Below, in pieces: positions 40,055 through 48,912 of a stretch of DNA of 64,000 bases. The notes below the pieces were generated by a model. That model saw nothing but the letters and a program-made list of their open reading frames with translations, did no database searches and was not told the origin of the DNA. This DNA is from Fidelibacterota bacterium (GTDB taxonomy: Bacteria > Fidelibacterota > UBA2242 > JAFGTP01): assembly GCA_016934035.1 (NCBI GenBank), contig JAFGTP010000054.1:216948-280947 (forward strand), given 5' to 3'. A program made the position numbers and the translations under genes. Numbering within the stretch: position 1 is the stretch's first letter; every line of letters begins with the position of its first letter.

Positions 40055-42241
40055 ATGTCATCTTATGAAAACCTCGACAAAATTGCGATTAATGTAAAAT
40101 CCCATCGATTACTTTCAAAATTGCTAAATGAAAATCCCAAACTGGAAAAAATTATGAACCAGTCGAAAAATGAAACCGAAGCCCTGGTGGGTGTTAAAGA
40201 ATGGGTTTTACATGAATTGAAAAAAAATGAAACAGCTTACCGTTACTATCAAGGTCAACTTAAAGGGGCTGAAAATCTGGCCCAGTTACAATGGTCCGAT
40301 TACGCAGCCATTCGAATACTGGACTACATTGACAATGCCGGACGGGAGTTTAGAGACCTCAATCTTCGTGGCAAAGTTGCTGTGAGCAATCCAATCAAAT
40401 TAATCTGGCTGGGGGTCCATATGGGTACCGGGGGTGCAAAGCCTTTCTTCTATCAGGACATGCTGCATCTTTTTCAACAATTTTCCGGAAAAAAAGAGAG
40501 AAACCCAGTGACTCGGGCGGAATTGGTTAAATGGATGGATCGCTATCCAAGCGGCCTGGATCCGAGAATTGTTCGTCTCCGTGAAGAGAACAGAGAAAGA
40601 ATAATCAAAATACTAATCAAAAAGATGGATTCCGGTGAAATTCATTCCCAGCGCTATCAATTCAAAGAAAATCTTTCGGAAGAACAAAAATTCCTCACTA
40701 TGCTGGAATGGTGGAAAGAAATGACTTTTCATATGACTTTTGCAGTACGTTCACCGGATTTATTGAATGAATTGCTGGATTTTTCCCTTGATCCGGACAC
40801 GATGGAAATTCTCTATCAGGCCGAAAAAAAGAAAATTCCCTTTTTTGTAAATCCCTACTATCTGTCACTGCTTCATGTCCGCGTGCCTTATTTTGCAATT
40901 GGAGCCGATCTCGCCATTCGATATTACATCCTATACAGCCAGGAACTGATCCATGAATTCGGTCATATTGTGGCCTGGGAAAGGGAAGATGAGGTTAAAC
41001 CCGGAGAACCCAATGCTGCAGGCTGGATATTGCCCAGTGATCACAATATTCATCGCCGCTACCCTGATGTTGCTATTTTGATTCCGGACACAGTGGGACG
41101 GGCCTGTGGCGGGTTGTGCAGTTCCTGTCAGCGGATGTACAATTTTCAACGGGGTTTGTTAAATTTTGATCTTAAAAAACTGGAACCCCATAAATCCTGG
41201 TCGGAAAAATTACCGGAACTTATCAATTACTGGAGGATGGATTCCCAACTTCGTGATATATTAATTACAGGTGGTGACGGCCTGATGAGTTCAAACCAGT
41301 CACTCCAGGAAATCTTTGCTGAGATTTTGGTCATGGCAAGACGCAAGCATGAGGACAATCAAAAACGCAAAGACCACGAAAAGCATGCAGAGATCCAAAG
41401 AATCAGAATCGGAACGCGATTGCCTGTTTATCTGCCTCAACGCATTACGCCGGATTTAATAAAAATCCTGAAGGATTTCAAAGACGAAGGAAGCCAGTTG
41501 GGCATCAGGCAATTTGTCATTCAAACCCATTTCGAGGCACCAATGGAAGTGACTCCGGAAGCCAAACTGGCGATTGAGCGCTTGATTTCAGCAGGCTGGG
41601 TGGTGACCAATCAAACTGTTTTCACAGTCTTTGCGTCGAGACGTGGTCACAATGCAAAATTACGAAAAGTACTTAATGACCTGGGGGTTTTAGCCTATTA
41701 TACCTTTACAGTCAAGGGCTATATGGAAAATTTTCATAATTTTGCACCCAATTCACGTTCTGTTCAGGAAAGTGCTGAAGAAAAAAGCTTTGGCACCATT
41801 CCCGAATATATGCAAAATGAATTGCAGGACAATATGGCGTCGCCGGAAAAAATCCCCCAAATAATTCAGGGAATAAAAAATAAAACTCAGATACCATTTC
41901 TTTCGACTGATCGGAATGTTCTCAATCTGCCGGGGGTTGGAAAATCTCTGACTTTTCGCACAATTGGTATCACCCGCTATGGTCGGCGTATTCTTGAATT
42001 TGATCACGATCGGACCAGAAAACACAGCCCGATCATTGAGAAGATGGGGAAAGTCGTCATTATTGAATCTAAATCAATTGCCGAATACCTTAAGCAGTTG
42101 GAAGATGTCGGCGAAGATATGTCTGAATATGATGATCTTTATGGGTATTCCATCGGAGAAACCGAAGCCAGAAACCCCATCTTTGAATATCCGGACTACG
42201 ACTTTTTTACCACTGATGAGATGACCAATCTGAAAATTTAA
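40055..42241 (+). CDS. KamA-family radical SAM protein (lysine 2,3-aminomutase-like)
   Basis: A 728-residue protein, much longer than the roughly 420 residues of classical lysine 2,3-aminomutase. The iron-sulfur motif CGGLCSSC (CxxxCxxC) is at residues 351-358, followed by ILITGGDGLMSS and IRIGTRLPVYLPQRI, both typical of the KamA barrel (SAM and PLP regions). The 350 residues before the cluster are a helical extension found in a long subfamily. The reaction is likely an aminomutase or related radical step; the substrate is uncertain. AGGAGG precedes the ATG. It stands alone with its own promoter. Confidence 0.88.
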   Translation: MSSYENLDKIAINVKSHRLLSKLLNENPKLEKIMNQSKNETEALVGVKEWVLHELKKNETAYRYYQGQLKGAENLAQLQWSDYAAIRILDYIDNAGREFRDLNLRGKVAVSNPIKLIWLGVHMGTGGAKPFFYQDMLHLFQQFSGKKERNPVTRAELVKWMDRYPSGLDPRIVRLREENRERIIKILIKKMDSGEIHSQRYQFKENLSEEQKFLTMLEWWKEMTFHMTFAVRSPDLLNELLDFSLDPDTMEILYQAEKKKIPFFVNPYYLSLLHVRVPYFAIGADLAIRYYILYSQELIHEFGHIVAWEREDEVKPGEPNAAGWILPSDHNIHRRYPDVAILIPDTVGRACGGLCSSCQRMYNFQRGLLNFDLKKLEPHKSWSEKLPELINYWRMDSQLRDILITGGDGLMSSNQSLQEIFAEILVMARRKHEDNQKRKDHEKHAEIQRIRIGTRLPVYLPQRITPDLIKILKDFKDEGSQLGIRQFVIQTHFEAPMEVTPEAKLAIERLISAGWVVTNQTVFTVFASRRGHNAKLRKVLNDLGVLAYYTFTVKGYMENFHNFAPNSRSVQESAEEKSFGTIPEYMQNELQDNMASPEKIPQIIQGIKNKTQIPFLSTDRNVLNLPGVGKSLTFRTIGITRYGRRILEFDHDRTRKHSPIIEKMGKVVIIESKSIAEYLKQLEDVGEDMSEYDDLYGYSIGETEARNPIFEYPDYDFFTTDEMTNLKI

Positions 42242-42397: not shown

Positions 42398-42424
42398 TTC
42401 GAATAATTTTCAAAAATATTCTAA
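42398..42424. promoter_or_regulatory. Candidate TetR operator, site 1 (imperfect)
   Basis: A 27-base dyad with TTCGAA at 42398-42403 and TTCTAA at 42419-42424, spaced by 15 bases. It lies just upstream of the tetR -35 element. It differs from sites 2 and 3 in one end base. Confidence 0.6.
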
Positions 42425-42431
42425 AAAATTA

Positions 42432-42460
42432 TTGCAAATTAATCAGAATACTTGTAAACT
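42432..42460 (+). promoter_or_regulatory. Promoter of the tetR/efflux operon
   Basis: TTGCAA (42432-42437) and TAAACT (42455-42460) with a 17-base spacer. It is flanked on both sides by the 27-base dyads. Confidence 0.6.
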
Positions 42461-42464
42461 ATTT

Positions 42465-42491
42465 TTCGAATAATTAATTAAAAAATTCGAA
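42465..42491. promoter_or_regulatory. Candidate TetR operator, site 2
   Basis: A 27-base dyad ending in TTCGAA at both sides (42465-42470 and 42486-42491), directly after the -10 element and 9 bases before the tetR ATG. A repressor bound here would block the promoter. Confidence 0.65.
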
Positions 42492-42500
42492 AGTAATACT

Positions 42501-43088
42501 ATGCAGAAAATCAGTCTAAAAAAAGAAAAAATACTCAACGCCGCCCGTGAATTAATTGACAAAATCGGTCCGGACAAAATCACCATGGAGCTCATTGCCA
42601 AACGTATAGAAATGGGAAAGGCCAGTATCTATTATTACTTTAAAAGCAAAGAAGAAATCATTTCCGAAGTGGCCAGCGAAGAAGGCAGAAAAATCCAGAG
42701 GGAGGTGTATAAAGCCATTCAAGAGGAAACAAATCCGGTGGACAAACTCAGGGCTTACATGATTACTCGTGTAAAATTCATGAAAGAATTGGCTGGTTAT
42801 TACGGCGGAAAAAAACTTCAGAAAGAGCTGCACAAATACCACTTTGCTTTTGAAGCCTTTCAGAAACAATTTTATGATTTTGAACAAAATATACTGCATG
42901 TCATCATTGAGACGGGCCTGGAAAAAGGAGTCTTTGAAATAGAAGATACCACTATCGCCACCGGTGCATTGCTGTCGGCCATGCGGGGTATTGAATACCA
43001 GTGGACCTTTTACACCGATCTGGATGAAGCATTGACACAGGCAGGAGTTTTATTCAGGATTTTGCTAAACGGAATTTTGAAGCGCTAA
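42501..43088 (+). CDS. TetR-family transcriptional regulator of an RND efflux operon
   Basis: A 195-residue regulator. The helix-turn-helix domain is at residues about 5-60 (ILNAARELIDKIGPDKITMELIAKRIEMGKASIYYYFKSKEEII). The C-terminal helical ligand domain shows no specific motif. It heads a cluster with TolC, adaptor, RND pump and PG0541-like genes. Matching dyads lie before it and before the TolC gene, so it probably represses itself and the pump and is released by a pump substrate. Confidence 0.9.
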   Translation: MQKISLKKEKILNAARELIDKIGPDKITMELIAKRIEMGKASIYYYFKSKEEIISEVASEEGRKIQREVYKAIQEETNPVDKLRAYMITRVKFMKELAGYYGGKKLQKELHKYHFAFEAFQKQFYDFEQNILHVIIETGLEKGVFEIEDTTIATGALLSAMRGIEYQWTFYTDLDEALTQAGVLFRILLNGILKR

Positions 43089-43105
43089 AAATTTTTTAAT
43101 CATTT

Positions 43106-43132
43106 TTCGAATAAATTTGAAAATAATTCGAA
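43106..43132. promoter_or_regulatory. Candidate TetR operator, site 3, upstream of the TolC gene
   Basis: A 27-base dyad with TTCGAA at 43106-43111 and 43127-43132 and the same 15-base spacing as site 2. It lies 42 bases ahead of the TolC start. Confidence 0.65.
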
Positions 43133-43173: not shown

Positions 43174-44577
43174 ATGAGAAAAAGACTCATCTCGAATTTG
43201 ATCATGGCCGTGCCTATGGTGGTTTTTGCACAACAGCAACTGACGCTGGATCAATGTCATCAACTGGCACTGAAAAATAACTATGAGATAAAAATTGCCC
43301 GGGAAGAAGTCCAGGCCGCTGAACACAATGTTAAAAGTTCCCGCACCTTGTTTTTACCGAAGTTCAGTTTTACAGGGACCTATCTGCATAACGATGAATC
43401 AATTAAATATAGGATTGATGAAATGGCATTGCCGGTAGGTAATGCTGACGGAACTTTTCGGCCGGACCAGTTGACCACTCTAACCGATGCAGCCGGTAAC
43501 CTCGTTCCCTATCCGATGAACTGGGTCCACATTCCGTCAACAGACCTGACCTTTGGGCAGAAAGATCTGTATCTGCTGAATCTTGGCCTGGTGCAACCGC
43601 TTTTTACCGGTGGAAAAATCCTTCAGCAATACAAAATCAGCCAAAGTACTGCAAAAATTTCTAAGGCTCAAAAATGGCTCACCGATTCTGATGTCCTTCT
43701 GCAAACCAGTGAACTCTTCTGGAAAATTGTCTCTATAGAAGAAAAAGTCATTTTAGCCGAAAGCTATGTTGCCTTAATTGAGGACCACCTCACCATTTTG
43801 AATAATTACCTGGGCGAAGGTATCATCACCAGCAATGAACTGCTCAAAGCCATGGTCCGGTTAAATGAGGCGAAAATGAATTTGCTTAAAGCGCAAAACG
43901 GACGCGATTTGGCAAAGATGGCTTTGTGCCGGCATCTCGGCCTTCCTATCGACAGCACCATTGAGTTGAAAACTGAAAAGATGGATGATTATTCGGTCAT
44001 CGATAACCAGTATTCCGGTGATGAATTTGCCAACCAGCGCAATGAATTAAAAATGCTTCAGGAATCTGTTAATATTACCAAATCGATGGAGCAAGTCGCC
44101 CTCTCTGGGTATCTGCCAAACCTGGTTTTGACCGGCAATTACACAACCCTGAATCCCAATCCCTATAACAGTTTGAAAGAGGAATTTGGTGGCGGATGGA
44201 ATGTGGGTCTGTCAGCCCAGTTTGATATTTTCAGTTGGAATGAACGTGGCCACAAAGTGGCTTCAGCCCGGCATACACGAAAAGCGGCAGAACAGAAACT
44301 GGAAGATACTCAAAATCTCATTAAACTGGATATTCAGCAATCGGTTTACAAGGTCAATGAAATTGTCAGGCAAATCAGGCTGGCGGAATCAACCTTGTCG
44401 CAGGCCGAAAAAAATCTGCAGATAACCCGGGATAATTTCAGGGAAGGGATCGCCACCAGTACTGATGTTCTCGATGCACAAATACTTTGGCAGCGGGCTA
44501 ATTCCGAACTCATTGACAGCAATAGTGAATATCAAATTAATCTGGCTAAATATTATAAAGCCATCGGACAAAAATAA
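43174..44577 (+). CDS. TolC-family outer-membrane efflux protein
   Basis: A 467-residue protein with a signal peptide (MRKRLISNLIMAVPMVVFAQ). The OEP repeat pattern starts with LTLDQCHQLALKNNYEIKIAREEVQAAEHN and recurs after the middle (TDVLDAQILWQRANSELIDSNSEYQINLAKYYKAIG). It forms the outer channel for the RND pump encoded downstream. I start at 43174 because of the GGAG upstream; earlier in-frame codons do not give a signal peptide. Confidence 0.9.
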   Translation: MRKRLISNLIMAVPMVVFAQQQLTLDQCHQLALKNNYEIKIAREEVQAAEHNVKSSRTLFLPKFSFTGTYLHNDESIKYRIDEMALPVGNADGTFRPDQLTTLTDAAGNLVPYPMNWVHIPSTDLTFGQKDLYLLNLGLVQPLFTGGKILQQYKISQSTAKISKAQKWLTDSDVLLQTSELFWKIVSIEEKVILAESYVALIEDHLTILNNYLGEGIITSNELLKAMVRLNEAKMNLLKAQNGRDLAKMALCRHLGLPIDSTIELKTEKMDDYSVIDNQYSGDEFANQRNELKMLQESVNITKSMEQVALSGYLPNLVLTGNYTTLNPNPYNSLKEEFGGGWNVGLSAQFDIFSWNERGHKVASARHTRKAAEQKLEDTQNLIKLDIQQSVYKVNEIVRQIRLAESTLSQAEKNLQITRDNFREGIATSTDVLDAQILWQRANSELIDSNSEYQINLAKYYKAIGQK

Positions 44578-44747: not shown

Positions 44748-45788
44748 ATGAAAAAAACGCTGGCACTCAGTTTTACATTCTTACTGCTTCTATCCGCATG
44801 TTCAAAGAACGAATCGAATAAGACCGTTGAGAATCGACCACCTCTGGTAAAAGTGGAAACAACCCGGTTGAGAAAACACCAGCCCTTGGAAATTCACAGC
44901 GGTACCATTGTGGCCCGACGTGAAGCCAACCTGGCATCCATTCTTCCTGGTAGAGTTGAAAAATTCCATGTGAGTGAAGGAGAAGAGGTCGAAGAAGGCC
45001 AGTTGATTGCAGAACTTTCCGGTGAATTGCTCACCACGGCACAAATCGAATACGAAAGCTACAAAAAGGATTTTGGCCGGGTCAAGCGTCTTTTTGAAAA
45101 AGGCAGCGTGCCGGAACAGCAATATGACCATGTAAAAGCCCAATATGAGGCCAAGGAAGCCCAATACAATCTGGTGAAAAAAAATACTGAGATCAGAGCG
45201 CCTTTTGCAGGAACCATTACCCAAAAAATGATCGAAGAAGGTGAGACCTTTATGCTGCTGAATCCAGGATTGGACGCAGGCTATTCTCATGCTTCCGGTG
45301 TTGTACGCCTGATGGACCTGAAAACTCTGGAAGTAAAAATTTCTGTCAATGAAAAGGAAATCAGTCGTTATCAAATCGGCCTGCCGGCAATGGTGGTTTC
45401 CGATGCCTATCCGGATTCCAGATATCCGGGCCAGATAACCAAAATTGATGACACCTTTGATGTCCTGACCAAAACGGCCCAGGTTACGGTGGAAATCAAG
45501 AACCAAGAGAAAGCACTCAAGCCTGGCATGTATGCCAGAGTTGAAATTCCAATGGCAGAACGGGAAAATATTTTTGTCCCCCTTGGAGCCATATATCGGG
45601 AAGCTGCCACCGGCCGGGACTACGTCTTTACCATTGAAAACCAAAAAGTGAAAAGAAATACGATTAAACGCCTATATACTGACAGAGATTTTGTTGCTGT
45701 TTCCGGTTTGACTGCTGGACAAACCCTGGTAGTTGAGGGAAAATCCAGAATCAAAGACGGCACAAAAGTACAAATTTTCGGTCAATAA
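44748..45788 (+). CDS. RND efflux periplasmic adaptor (membrane fusion) lipoprotein
   Basis: A 346-residue adaptor with a lipoprotein signal (MKKTLALSFTFLLLLSAC). The biotinyl-lipoyl domain appears as ANLASILPGRVEKFHVSEGEEVEEGQLIAELSG, with a short coiled-coil hairpin (about 95-140), the second lipoyl half IRAPFAGTITQKMIEEGE, and a beta-barrel domain (LKPGMYARVEIPMAERENIFVPLGAI). It links the RND pump to TolC. The ATG at 44748 follows AAAGGAG. Confidence 0.92.
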   Translation: MKKTLALSFTFLLLLSACSKNESNKTVENRPPLVKVETTRLRKHQPLEIHSGTIVARREANLASILPGRVEKFHVSEGEEVEEGQLIAELSGELLTTAQIEYESYKKDFGRVKRLFEKGSVPEQQYDHVKAQYEAKEAQYNLVKKNTEIRAPFAGTITQKMIEEGETFMLLNPGLDAGYSHASGVVRLMDLKTLEVKISVNEKEISRYQIGLPAMVVSDAYPDSRYPGQITKIDDTFDVLTKTAQVTVEIKNQEKALKPGMYARVEIPMAERENIFVPLGAIYREAATGRDYVFTIENQKVKRNTIKRLYTDRDFVAVSGLTAGQTLVVEGKSRIKDGTKVQIFGQ

Positions 45789-45801: not shown

Positions 45802-48800
45802 ATGAAATTACCACAAATAGCTGTCAGTCGTCCTGTATCAATAGCCATGTTGTTTACGGGGATTCTGATTTTTGGAATGGTTTCCCTTTTTCAATTACCC
45901 CTGGATTTGATGCCAGACATGGAATTACCTGTAATAACGGTAATTACGGTATATCCGGGGGCTTCGGCAGAAGAAGTAGAAAAACAGGTCTCCAAAAAAA
46001 TTGAACGGGTTCTGGCCGGAACTGAGGACCTGAGAAACATTTCATCAGTATCCCGGGAAAATGTTTCCTTTGTTCAGTTGGAATTTGATTGGGGCACCAA
46101 TCTGGATAACACCACCAACAGTGCCCGTGATCTGCTGGATATGATGAGCCGGGAATTGCCAGAAGGCGCAGAAAAACCCGTGATCTACAAAATCAGTTCC
46201 TCTATGGCCCCGGTCCTGGTTTATAGCATTACTGCTGATAAAAATTATTTTGCCCTGAACAAAATAATGGAAGATGATATTATGCCGCAATTGCGGAAAA
46301 TCAAAGGAGTAGCCTCCAATATTGACATTGCTGTACCTGAACGCCAGATCAAGATCAATGTGGACCCGAAAAAACTGAAGGCTTATGGAATTTCTATGAA
46401 TGCCGTCGCTACCGTTTTGCAGGCGGAAAATATTACCATTCCCGGGGGCAATATCAAAACCTGTAGAAGTGATTTGTCCGTTTCGGTTCCCGGTGAATTT
46501 GAAAGTTTAGATGAGATAGAAAATTGCGCCATCGCCAGTTTTTTGGGTAAAACTATCCGCATCAAAGATATAGCAACTCTGAAAGATGAATACCGCGACA
46601 TGGATGTCTATGCAACCTCTGAAACCGGCCGGGGTGTCATTCTTATGATTCAAAAACAATCCGATGCCAATACCGTTTCGGTAGCCAGATTGGTCCGTGA
46701 AGAAGTGGCAAATATACAAAAGGAACTGCCTGATGATGTTAAAATCAACGAAGTGATGGCCACTGATGAAATTGTTGTGGAAGCGATTCGCAATCTGGCC
46801 ATGACCATACTCTGGTCTTTAATTTTTGTGGTGCTGGTTGTTATGATATTTTTACGAGACCTGAAAGGAAGCCTGGTGGTATTTCTGACGATTCCATTTT
46901 CCTTGATAGTGGCCTTTATTTTTATGGCTCTTGCCGGCTGGACGATCAATATTTTTTCATTGATATCGCTTATTATCGCTCTCGGTATGGTTGTCGATGC
47001 TGCCATCGTTGTATACGAAAATATCACACAGCATGTGGAACGGGGTGAAAAACCACCAATGGCCGCAGTCTTTGGTACCAGTGAAATGGGAATGGCCATT
47101 TCGGCCTCGACAGCGACGACAATTTCAGTTTTTCTGCCGATGGTTTTTATGTCGGGAATTGCCGGTATTATGTTCAATCAGCTGGCTATCCTTGTAGCGA
47201 TAACATTGTTGATGTCATTGTTCACTTCTATGACCCTGACGCCAATGGTTTCATCGGTAATTTTAAGGCCCCTGAATCAGCGGCGTAAACCAGGAAAACT
47301 GTTTCAGTGGTCAGAAAGAATTTTTGTGGCCATTGAAAACGGATATAAAAGCCTACTGAATTGGACTGTCTGCCACAACTGGTTCATTATTATCCTTGTG
47401 GCTGTGATTTTTACCCTTTCCTTGGTTATGGCGCAGTTTATCAAAACCGACTATTTGCCCGATTTTGATGCAGGTGATATCATTGTCGTTTTCGAAACTG
47501 AAATTGGTACCAGCGCTTCGGAAACCAATAAAGTAGCAGAAAAAATCAAAAAAATTTTGCTGGATGAAGCCCGGGAAAAAGTACCGGGTTCGCTCTTTTC
47601 CATCGTAGGTCAAACGGAAAAAGGTATTTTAACCACAGTGGGTTTTGAAGAAGGTAAAAATATCGGGAATGTTGGCATTCACTTAAAATTGAAGAACCTT
47701 CGGGAGCGTTCTGCCAAAGAAGTCGGAGATGCGATTCGTGAAAAAGTGGCACTCATACCGGAGATCAGTCATTTCCATGTCACAGCCGGCAGCATGCTGG
47801 CCACCGGAGTTTTGGGCAATATTAAACCGATCGAAATTGAAATCAGCGGCAATAATCTGGATCATTTGAACAAAACTGCAAAAATTCTGGAAGAAAAATT
47901 AAAACTGGAAAAGGCTCTTCAAGATGTGACCACCACCATTGATGAGGGGAAGCAGGAAATTATTTTTGATATCAATCGGAAAAAAGCTTCTGAACTGGGT
48001 CTTAATGCCATGATGATCGCCATGCAGGTCCGGCAGGCAATTTATGGAACCGATGCCGGTGAATACTCAGAAGAGGGTGAAGAATTCAAAATCAAAATCC
48101 GCTATGATGAACAGCATCGCAATGAAATTGAAGACTTAAAAAAAATCATCCTCACCAATCTGCACGGGCAACAGATTCTGATTTCAACAATTGCCAATAT
48201 TAAAATGGACACCAGTCCTTTAGCTATTGACCGAAAAAGCCAGCAACGCATCGTACAGGTCCGTGCTGATCTGGCGACAGGGGTGTCTTTGGGTGAAGCA
48301 GCCATCATCGCTCGAAATGTCGTCAGCCAGATTGATGTTCCCCAGGGAGCATCGGTAAAACTTGTAGGGCAGGTAGGCGAACAAGGGGACTCTTTTGGAA
48401 ATCTGGGTCTGATTTTTGGACTGGGTCTGGCCCTTGTTTATATGGTTATGGCAGCCCAGTTCGAATCCTTCCTGAATCCTTTGATTATTCTGTTTGCTGT
48501 CCCGCTGACCATCATTGGAATTATCTGGGCTTTTCTTTTGACCGGAACAACCCTGAGCATCAATTCTTTCATCGGCGCTATCATGCTGATTGGTATTGTT
48601 GTGAATAATGGAATTGTGTTGGTGGATTATACCAATTTACTGCGCGCCAGGGGTAACCGCTTACTTGAGGCGGTTATTGAATCCGGTGGTTCAAGACTTC
48701 GTCCGGTACTGATGACCTCCCTGACAACCATTCTCGCTATGGTCCCTATGGCCACCAGTAAAGGCATGGGAAGCGAAATGTTTGTTCCCATCGGTGTGAC

Positions 48801-48912
48801 AATGATTGGCGGCCTGATGGTTTCCACTTTGATTACATTGGTGTTTGTTCCGTCGCTGTACGTGGTTTTCAACAGGCAAAAGGACAGAACCGAGCAAATT
48901 TCAAAAAATTAA
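45802..48912 (+). CDS. RND-family efflux permease (AcrB/MexB-like)
   Basis: A 1036-residue inner-membrane transporter with the usual two halves of six helices each and two large periplasmic loops. The opening (SRPVSIAMLFTGILIFGMVSLFQLPLDLMPDMELPVITV) and the helix 4 region LIIALGMVVDAAIVVYENI, with the proton-relay Asp, are clear. The second half ends in the SLTTILAMVPMA and FVPIGVTMIGG segments. It belongs to the hydrophobe/amphiphile exporter group; the substrate is unknown. It is 13 bases downstream of the adaptor gene. Confidence 0.95.
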   Translation: MKLPQIAVSRPVSIAMLFTGILIFGMVSLFQLPLDLMPDMELPVITVITVYPGASAEEVEKQVSKKIERVLAGTEDLRNISSVSRENVSFVQLEFDWGTNLDNTTNSARDLLDMMSRELPEGAEKPVIYKISSSMAPVLVYSITADKNYFALNKIMEDDIMPQLRKIKGVASNIDIAVPERQIKINVDPKKLKAYGISMNAVATVLQAENITIPGGNIKTCRSDLSVSVPGEFESLDEIENCAIASFLGKTIRIKDIATLKDEYRDMDVYATSETGRGVILMIQKQSDANTVSVARLVREEVANIQKELPDDVKINEVMATDEIVVEAIRNLAMTILWSLIFVVLVVMIFLRDLKGSLVVFLTIPFSLIVAFIFMALAGWTINIFSLISLIIALGMVVDAAIVVYENITQHVERGEKPPMAAVFGTSEMGMAISASTATTISVFLPMVFMSGIAGIMFNQLAILVAITLLMSLFTSMTLTPMVSSVILRPLNQRRKPGKLFQWSERIFVAIENGYKSLLNWTVCHNWFIIILVAVIFTLSLVMAQFIKTDYLPDFDAGDIIVVFETEIGTSASETNKVAEKIKKILLDEAREKVPGSLFSIVGQTEKGILTTVGFEEGKNIGNVGIHLKLKNLRERSAKEVGDAIREKVALIPEISHFHVTAGSMLATGVLGNIKPIEIEISGNNLDHLNKTAKILEEKLKLEKALQDVTTTIDEGKQEIIFDINRKKASELGLNAMMIAMQVRQAIYGTDAGEYSEEGEEFKIKIRYDEQHRNEIEDLKKIILTNLHGQQILISTIANIKMDTSPLAIDRKSQQRIVQVRADLATGVSLGEAAIIARNVVSQIDVPQGASVKLVGQVGEQGDSFGNLGLIFGLGLALVYMVMAAQFESFLNPLIILFAVPLTIIGIIWAFLLTGTTLSINSFIGAIMLIGIVVNNGIVLVDYTNLLRARGNRLLEAVIESGGSRLRPVLMTSLTTILAMVPMATSKGMGSEMFVPIGVTMIGGLMVSTLITLVFVPSLYVVFNRQKDRTEQISKN

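Follow-up and report, generated by a model that had tools for sequence, protein, structure and literature searches.

A TetR operator at a fixed distance behind a T-run, between tetR and efflux pump genes of a Fidelibacterota bacterium: a candidate hairpin-free terminator

Genes and dyads around tetR

The window, that is, the whole stretch of 64,000 nucleotides analysed here, contained a tetR gene on the + strand at 42501-43088 (stop codon 43086-43088), which encodes a TetR-family repressor of 195 aa (TetR_N, E=6e-15). It is followed on the same strand by a complete RND tripartite efflux operon whose genes lie side by side: a TolC-type outer membrane efflux channel (~43174-44577; OEP, E=2.9e-61), a periplasmic adaptor (membrane fusion protein; 44748-45788; HlyD_D23 and RND_mfp) and the RND efflux pump (45802-48912; ACR_tran, E=1.4e-246). 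At 40055-42241 we found a 728-aa protein with similarity to KamA/aminomutase-type radical SAM proteins in NCBIfam, below the curated cut-offs; it has a long N-terminal extension and showed no Pfam match at E<=0.001. Rfam gave no match.

Three 27-bp dyads of the pattern TTCGAA-N15-TTCGAA stand around tetR on the + strand, with the left end TTCGAATAA in common. O1 (42398-42424, TTCGAATAATTTTCAAAAATATTCTAA, centre 42411) has one mismatch to the pattern and adjoins the -35 of tetR on the upstream side. O2 (42465-42491, TTCGAATAATTAATTAAAAAATTCGAA, centre 42478) matches exactly, lies between the -10 and the tetR start and covers the expected transcription start of tetR. O3 (43106-43132, TTCGAATAAATTTGAAAATAATTCGAA, centre 43119), also exact, is located 18 bases past the tetR stop codon and ahead of the pump genes. 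Compared with their own reverse complements, O1, O2 and O3 match at 22, 20 and 22 of 27 positions, respectively. The probable tetR promoter (42432-42460, + strand) is composed of a -35 TTGCAA (42432-42437) and a -10 TAAACT (42455-42460) with a 17-bp spacer, a weak match of 8/12 positions. A preliminary description of this DNA had placed the three dyads and these promoter elements, and all its coordinates were correct.

The TetR protein and its operator

The helix-turn-helix domain TetR_N of the window TetR scored 55.2 bits against a curated cut-off of 24, and the AlphaFold model (pLDDT 88) showed the all-helical, ligand-binding C-terminal domain of the TetR fold. Many TetR-family structures matched this model, QacR among them with a TM of 0.76. 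By sequence over the full length, no structure in the PDB came closer to the window TetR than QacR. The outer half-sites of the dyad are 21 bp apart, equal to two helical turns, and the central element is conserved. TetR regulators that bind as two dimers have operators of 22-32 bp, and those binding as single dimers have operators of 15-17 bp (PMC4150764); the 27-bp dyad exceeds the lower bound of ~22 bp for dimer-of-dimers operators. The preliminary description had suggested that the site might hold two dimers, an idea that is reasonable in view of the operator length and the likeness to QacR. Because of this length, and because the closest solved relative is a dimer-of-dimers regulator, two TetR dimers per operator, which we infer rather than observe, is the better guess.

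Operator conservation in homologous tetR loci

Homologous tetR genes were gathered, and 84 loci from outside the window were tested. The dyad TTCGA...TCGAA with a length of 27 bp was found upstream of tetR in 39 of these loci and just past the stop codon in 17. Other dyad lengths between 20 and 41 bp occurred upstream in at most four loci and downstream in at most two. Upstream, 19 bp formed a second, smaller peak (19 loci), which largely reflects a TTCGAC-like element at the centre of the 27-bp sites themselves. A 35-column symmetric matrix revealed 106 sites in 66/84 loci, compared with 0-4 in shuffled regions, and when trained without the window it scored O1, O2 and O3 at 23.0, 24.5 and 24.6 bits. 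Strong matrix matches numbered 107 upstream and 63 downstream of tetR, with only two outside both flanks. The consensus sequence of the operator is TTCGACC-N13-GGTCGAA; the window has the TTCGAA form.

The preliminary description had taken the dyad for the TetR operator and proposed to look in other genomes for the motif ahead of the same regulator. That search succeeded: the dyad recurs upstream of homologous tetR genes as well as after their stop codons, and among the long spacings 27 bp was the only length enriched. Since the placement around homologous tetR genes is the same in many phyla, the 27-bp dyad is almost certainly the operator of this TetR subfamily, and we are highly confident that the three dyads of the window serve as operators of the TetR encoded between them.

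A promoter of the type TTGACA-N17-TATAAT (at least 10/12 matches) preceded 22% of the upstream operators and 1% of shuffles; its position directly ahead of many upstream operators fits autoregulation. The tetR promoter of the window has the same placement relative to O2. O1 and O2, flanking this promoter, would repress initiation and so provide autoregulation. They are 67 bp apart, and two upstream operators were also found in six other loci, at distances of 58-110 bp. At the centre of the operator, C is far more frequent than G on the strand of the transcribed direction (47 vs 5 downstream, 70 vs 6 upstream), and this skew gives the operator an orientation. The centre of O3 is G, the minority orientation.

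A T-run exactly 8 bp before the downstream operator

The tetR stop codon of the window runs into an A/T-only block on the + strand (AAAATTTTTT, 43088-43097), the proposed U-tract, which contains the T-run TTTTTT at 43092-43097. After a gap of 8 bp (AATCATTT), O3 begins at 43106. O3 itself had been listed in the preliminary description and is borne out, while the T-run 8 bp ahead of it and the apparent lack of an own promoter at O3 had gone unnoticed.

Among all unique tetR loci, 57 had a downstream operator starting 13-24 bp past the stop codon. A run of at least five T ending exactly 8 bp ahead of this operator was present in 40/57 loci, which are related by descent; with shuffled spacers the same rule held in 1.4 loci on average and in no more than 7 in any of 2000 trials. 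When TetR proteins were clustered at <=50% identity (21 clusters), 16 had exactly 8 bp and 18 had 7-9 bp. In loci fetched after the rule was noticed, at least six T were found at 20/22 downstream operators. A motif-free test with 66 tetR genes that carry a T-run within 24 bases past the stop codon gave a peak of dyad complementarity only at gap 8 and length 27. In loci where the operator is distant, at +62 (L218 and L222) or +119 (L100), the T-run shifts along with it.

The exactly spaced T-run belongs to the downstream position: 44/63 downstream operators had it, compared with 3/107 upstream operators. Positions -18 to -9 ahead of the operator were all A/T in 79% of downstream loci and in 16% at upstream operators, and this A/T-only block is sharply bounded, with a length of 10 bp. 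As exceptions, the tract at this position is A-rich with 1-3 T in three relatives, and two others lack it altogether. The downstream operator is absent in about half of the detected tetR loci.

The order of stop codon, T-run, 8 bp and 27-bp operator was found in Neomarinimicrobiota, KSB1, Cloacimonadota, Aminicenantes, Bacteroidota and others; Neolewinella aurantiaca (L148) and a Dyadobacter species (L203) are cultured carriers. Genome G005 has, besides its first tetR, a distant second one (26% identical) behind which a T-run, a gap of 8 bp and a TCGACC...GGTCGAA dyad stand in the same order (contig 4, 167666-167705), and the layout may extend to other TetR branches. When whole phyla were scanned for a T-run followed by the dyad, at one mismatch, the results stayed near the control background and told nothing beyond the tetR loci.

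The gene behind the operator was co-directional with tetR in 57/57 loci with a downstream operator, and opposed in 8/55 of the others (p=0.003). In relatives, it encodes an outer-membrane efflux channel, HlyD adaptor, MMPL exporter, nitronate-monooxygenase-type enzyme, ketoacyl synthase III, patatin or radical SAM protein, and the switch appears to be modular. Among the unrelated genes behind the operator, for example in L048, L080, L089 and L190, many have to do with lipids or fatty acids (nitronate-monooxygenase/FabK-like, ketoacyl synthase III, patatin), a hint that the ligand is hydrophobic or an acyl compound.

Promoter and hairpin signals at the downstream operator

O3 sits between two co-directional genes, at no detected sigma70 promoter. 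When sigma70-type -35/-10 elements, the only type scored, were searched at the downstream operators, none reached 10/12 and fewer were found than in shuffles; an internal sigma70 promoter at O3 was therefore rejected. A Shine-Dalgarno-like sequence starts within 14 bases past the operator end in 25/57 loci, and so a promoter further downstream does not fit in those 25.

O3 might still be an ordinary promoter operator, with a pump promoter at the tetR end, perhaps non-sigma70, at which TetR blocks initiation. Most known TetR operators act in this way. A candidate for such a promoter is perhaps the Bacteroidota -7 element TAnnTTTG, which overlaps TAAnTTTTTT; TAAnTTTT resembles this element and some carriers are Bacteroidota. 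Four observations speak against it: -35/-10 elements are enriched at the upstream sites and not at the downstream ones, the 8-bp gap before the downstream operators contains no -10 consensus, the T-run is present also in lineages whose upstream operators follow TTGACA-type promoters, and a hairpin terminator takes the place of the T-run in L193-L197. We consider this reading rather unlikely.

The T-run could instead be a stiff A-tract that serves to place TetR on O3 or to tighten its binding there, without any part in termination; O3 may then be a plain roadblock. Its fixed distance to the operator would agree with this, as would the few relatives with A-rich instead of T-rich tracts at the same place. 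However, the run is T in the transcribed direction in most loci, it is nearly absent at the upstream operators of the same protein, and some lineages have hairpins ahead of it, which makes such a role distinctly improbable.

No terminator-like hairpin was found on the + strand in the window, and in the 57 loci there was usually none ahead of the T-run (mean z -0.30). An intrinsic terminator at the T-run was rejected because most loci lack the hairpin. In the Bacteroidota loci L193-L197 (Bacteroidia) and L146, at 41-71 bases past the tetR stop codon, a clear terminator hairpin precedes the T-run, and there the operator lies 9-11 bp from the T-run instead of 8. These real hairpins suggest that the T-run serves as the U-tract of a terminator, with a bound repressor able to take the place of the hairpin. 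They would also agree with a weak TetR-independent terminator that separates tetR from the pump genes, with O3 unconnected to it; but most loci have no hairpin, and independence would leave unexplained why the 8-bp distance is kept to the base, so we hold this reading to be very improbable.

Distribution of the dyad in the genome

The exact pattern TTCGAA-N15-TTCGAA occurs three times in the genome of 4,215,448 bases, twice in the window and once within the smc coding sequence; the copy inside smc was ruled out as a member of the regulon. With up to one mismatch to the outer pattern, 24 places were found genome-wide. Five other one-mismatch places were examined, of which three are inside ORFs, one is intergenic and one is just beside an ORF. 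Tandem near-matches (C61:3442-3489) were rejected, as they lie inside an ORF. The intergenic dyad TTCGAATATATTTAAATTCTGTTCAAA (G000 contig 45, 16471-16497; L038:4472-4498) has a divergent 191-aa ORF on one side and a transketolase-like ORF on the other, and it is possibly an extra target of the window TetR, or due to chance.

The preliminary description had named an even spread of the motif over the genome as evidence against an operator, and the rarity of the exact pattern shows no such spread. That the dyads around tetR arose by chance in AT-rich DNA has a negligible probability: with two mismatches allowed the window has 7 matches versus 7.06 in shuffles, but the genome-wide rarity of the exact pattern and the recurrence of the dyad at the same places in many phyla rule this out.

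Proposed mechanism

Starting from the operator conservation, the layout, the spacing rule and the missing promoter and hairpin signals, all seen directly in the DNA, we infer TetR binding, stalling of the polymerase, RNA release and read-through on induction, and propose a TetR-dependent roadblock terminator at O3. As a whole, this mechanism seems to us fairly probable. TetR on O3, probably as two dimers, would block RNA polymerase that is just leaving tetR. The halted polymerase would have its RNA-DNA hybrid, of which the length in polymerase is about 10 bp, on the A/T-only block, where the hybrid is weakest. The complete tetR mRNA would then be released past the stop codon while the pump genes stay off. 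Upon removal of TetR by an inducer, the polymerase, meeting no hairpin, would continue through tolC and the genes of the adaptor and the pump. The O3 element would thus work as a ligand-switched, hairpin-free terminator. A loop that joins O2 and O3 at a constant helical phase was set aside, as the O2-O3 distances differ widely between loci.

With LacI in vivo, polymerase covers 25 bp of a 30-bp spacer and halts ~5 bp before the operator (PMC4132739); a polymerase halted ~8 bp before O3 would hold a very weak hybrid. Mfd clears most roadblocked polymerase in E. coli (PMC4132739); the T-run may therefore support Mfd or do its work instead. With yeast polymerase I, a roadblock together with a T-rich stretch gave no RNA release without a hairpin in a recent study (PMC12366685), and this counts against a hairpin-free release at O3.

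Beyond this locus, we lean slightly towards a widespread bacterial class of ligand-switchable, hairpin-free terminators, in which a U-tract is followed after 8 bp by a bound TetR-family repressor. This repressor would do the work of the RNA hairpin, let a complete repressor mRNA go and hold the genes further downstream silent as long as the ligand is missing. If the mechanism holds, a single promoter can serve the repressor as well as the genes under its control, with the latter kept silent.

Comparison with known systems

Repressors are usually thought to act on initiation. QacR, which represses qacA, resembles the window TetR in fold, full-length sequence, long operator (28 bp, 27 bp here) and efflux-gene target; however, its operator sequence differs, and the downstream operator with T-run is an addition of the window system.

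LacI bound to its own O3 site, at the end of lacI, stops polymerase coming from lacI; the transcript is truncated there, and its product is tagged and degraded (PMC3711431). The likeness is a repressor operator near the end of its own gene that stops polymerase, as proposed here. However, the lacI message is truncated, whereas the window operator lies past the stop codon, so that the tetR message would be complete; and no T-run is described for LacI (PMC3711431). In arsenic bioreporters, a second ArsR site was engineered downstream of arsR and lowers the background (PMC3918153); its use as a roadblock is cited in PMC10310618. Repressor gene, operator and output gene stand in the same order as here, but that construct is synthetic, and neither a T-run nor a fixed spacing is described for it.

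CcpA, CodY, PurR, GalR and C.Kpn2I are bacterial roadblocks of elongation that act from sites downstream of the promoter (PMC10310618). In the literature searched, which excluded most subscription papers, we found no conserved T-run at a fixed distance described for these five, no sequence grammar described for known bacterial roadblocks, and no report of a repressor in bacteria whose operator has a T-run at a set distance ahead of it.

The terminator of RNA polymerase I (Reb1/Nsi1/TTF1) also combines a roadblock bound to the DNA with T-rich sequence immediately ahead of it, and in yeast the polymerase stops within that sequence, 15 bp before Reb1/Nsi1 (PMC12366685). It differs from the window element in being eukaryotic, in its 15 bp from the site, in not being ligand-controlled and in the RNA hairpin that release required in that study (PMC12366685). 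With the layout described here, it can be tested to the base pair at which point a bacterial polymerase halts before a roadblock and what releases its RNA, and, if our proposal is true, this layout would be the bacterial counterpart of the RNA polymerase I terminator with its roadblock and T-rich stretch.
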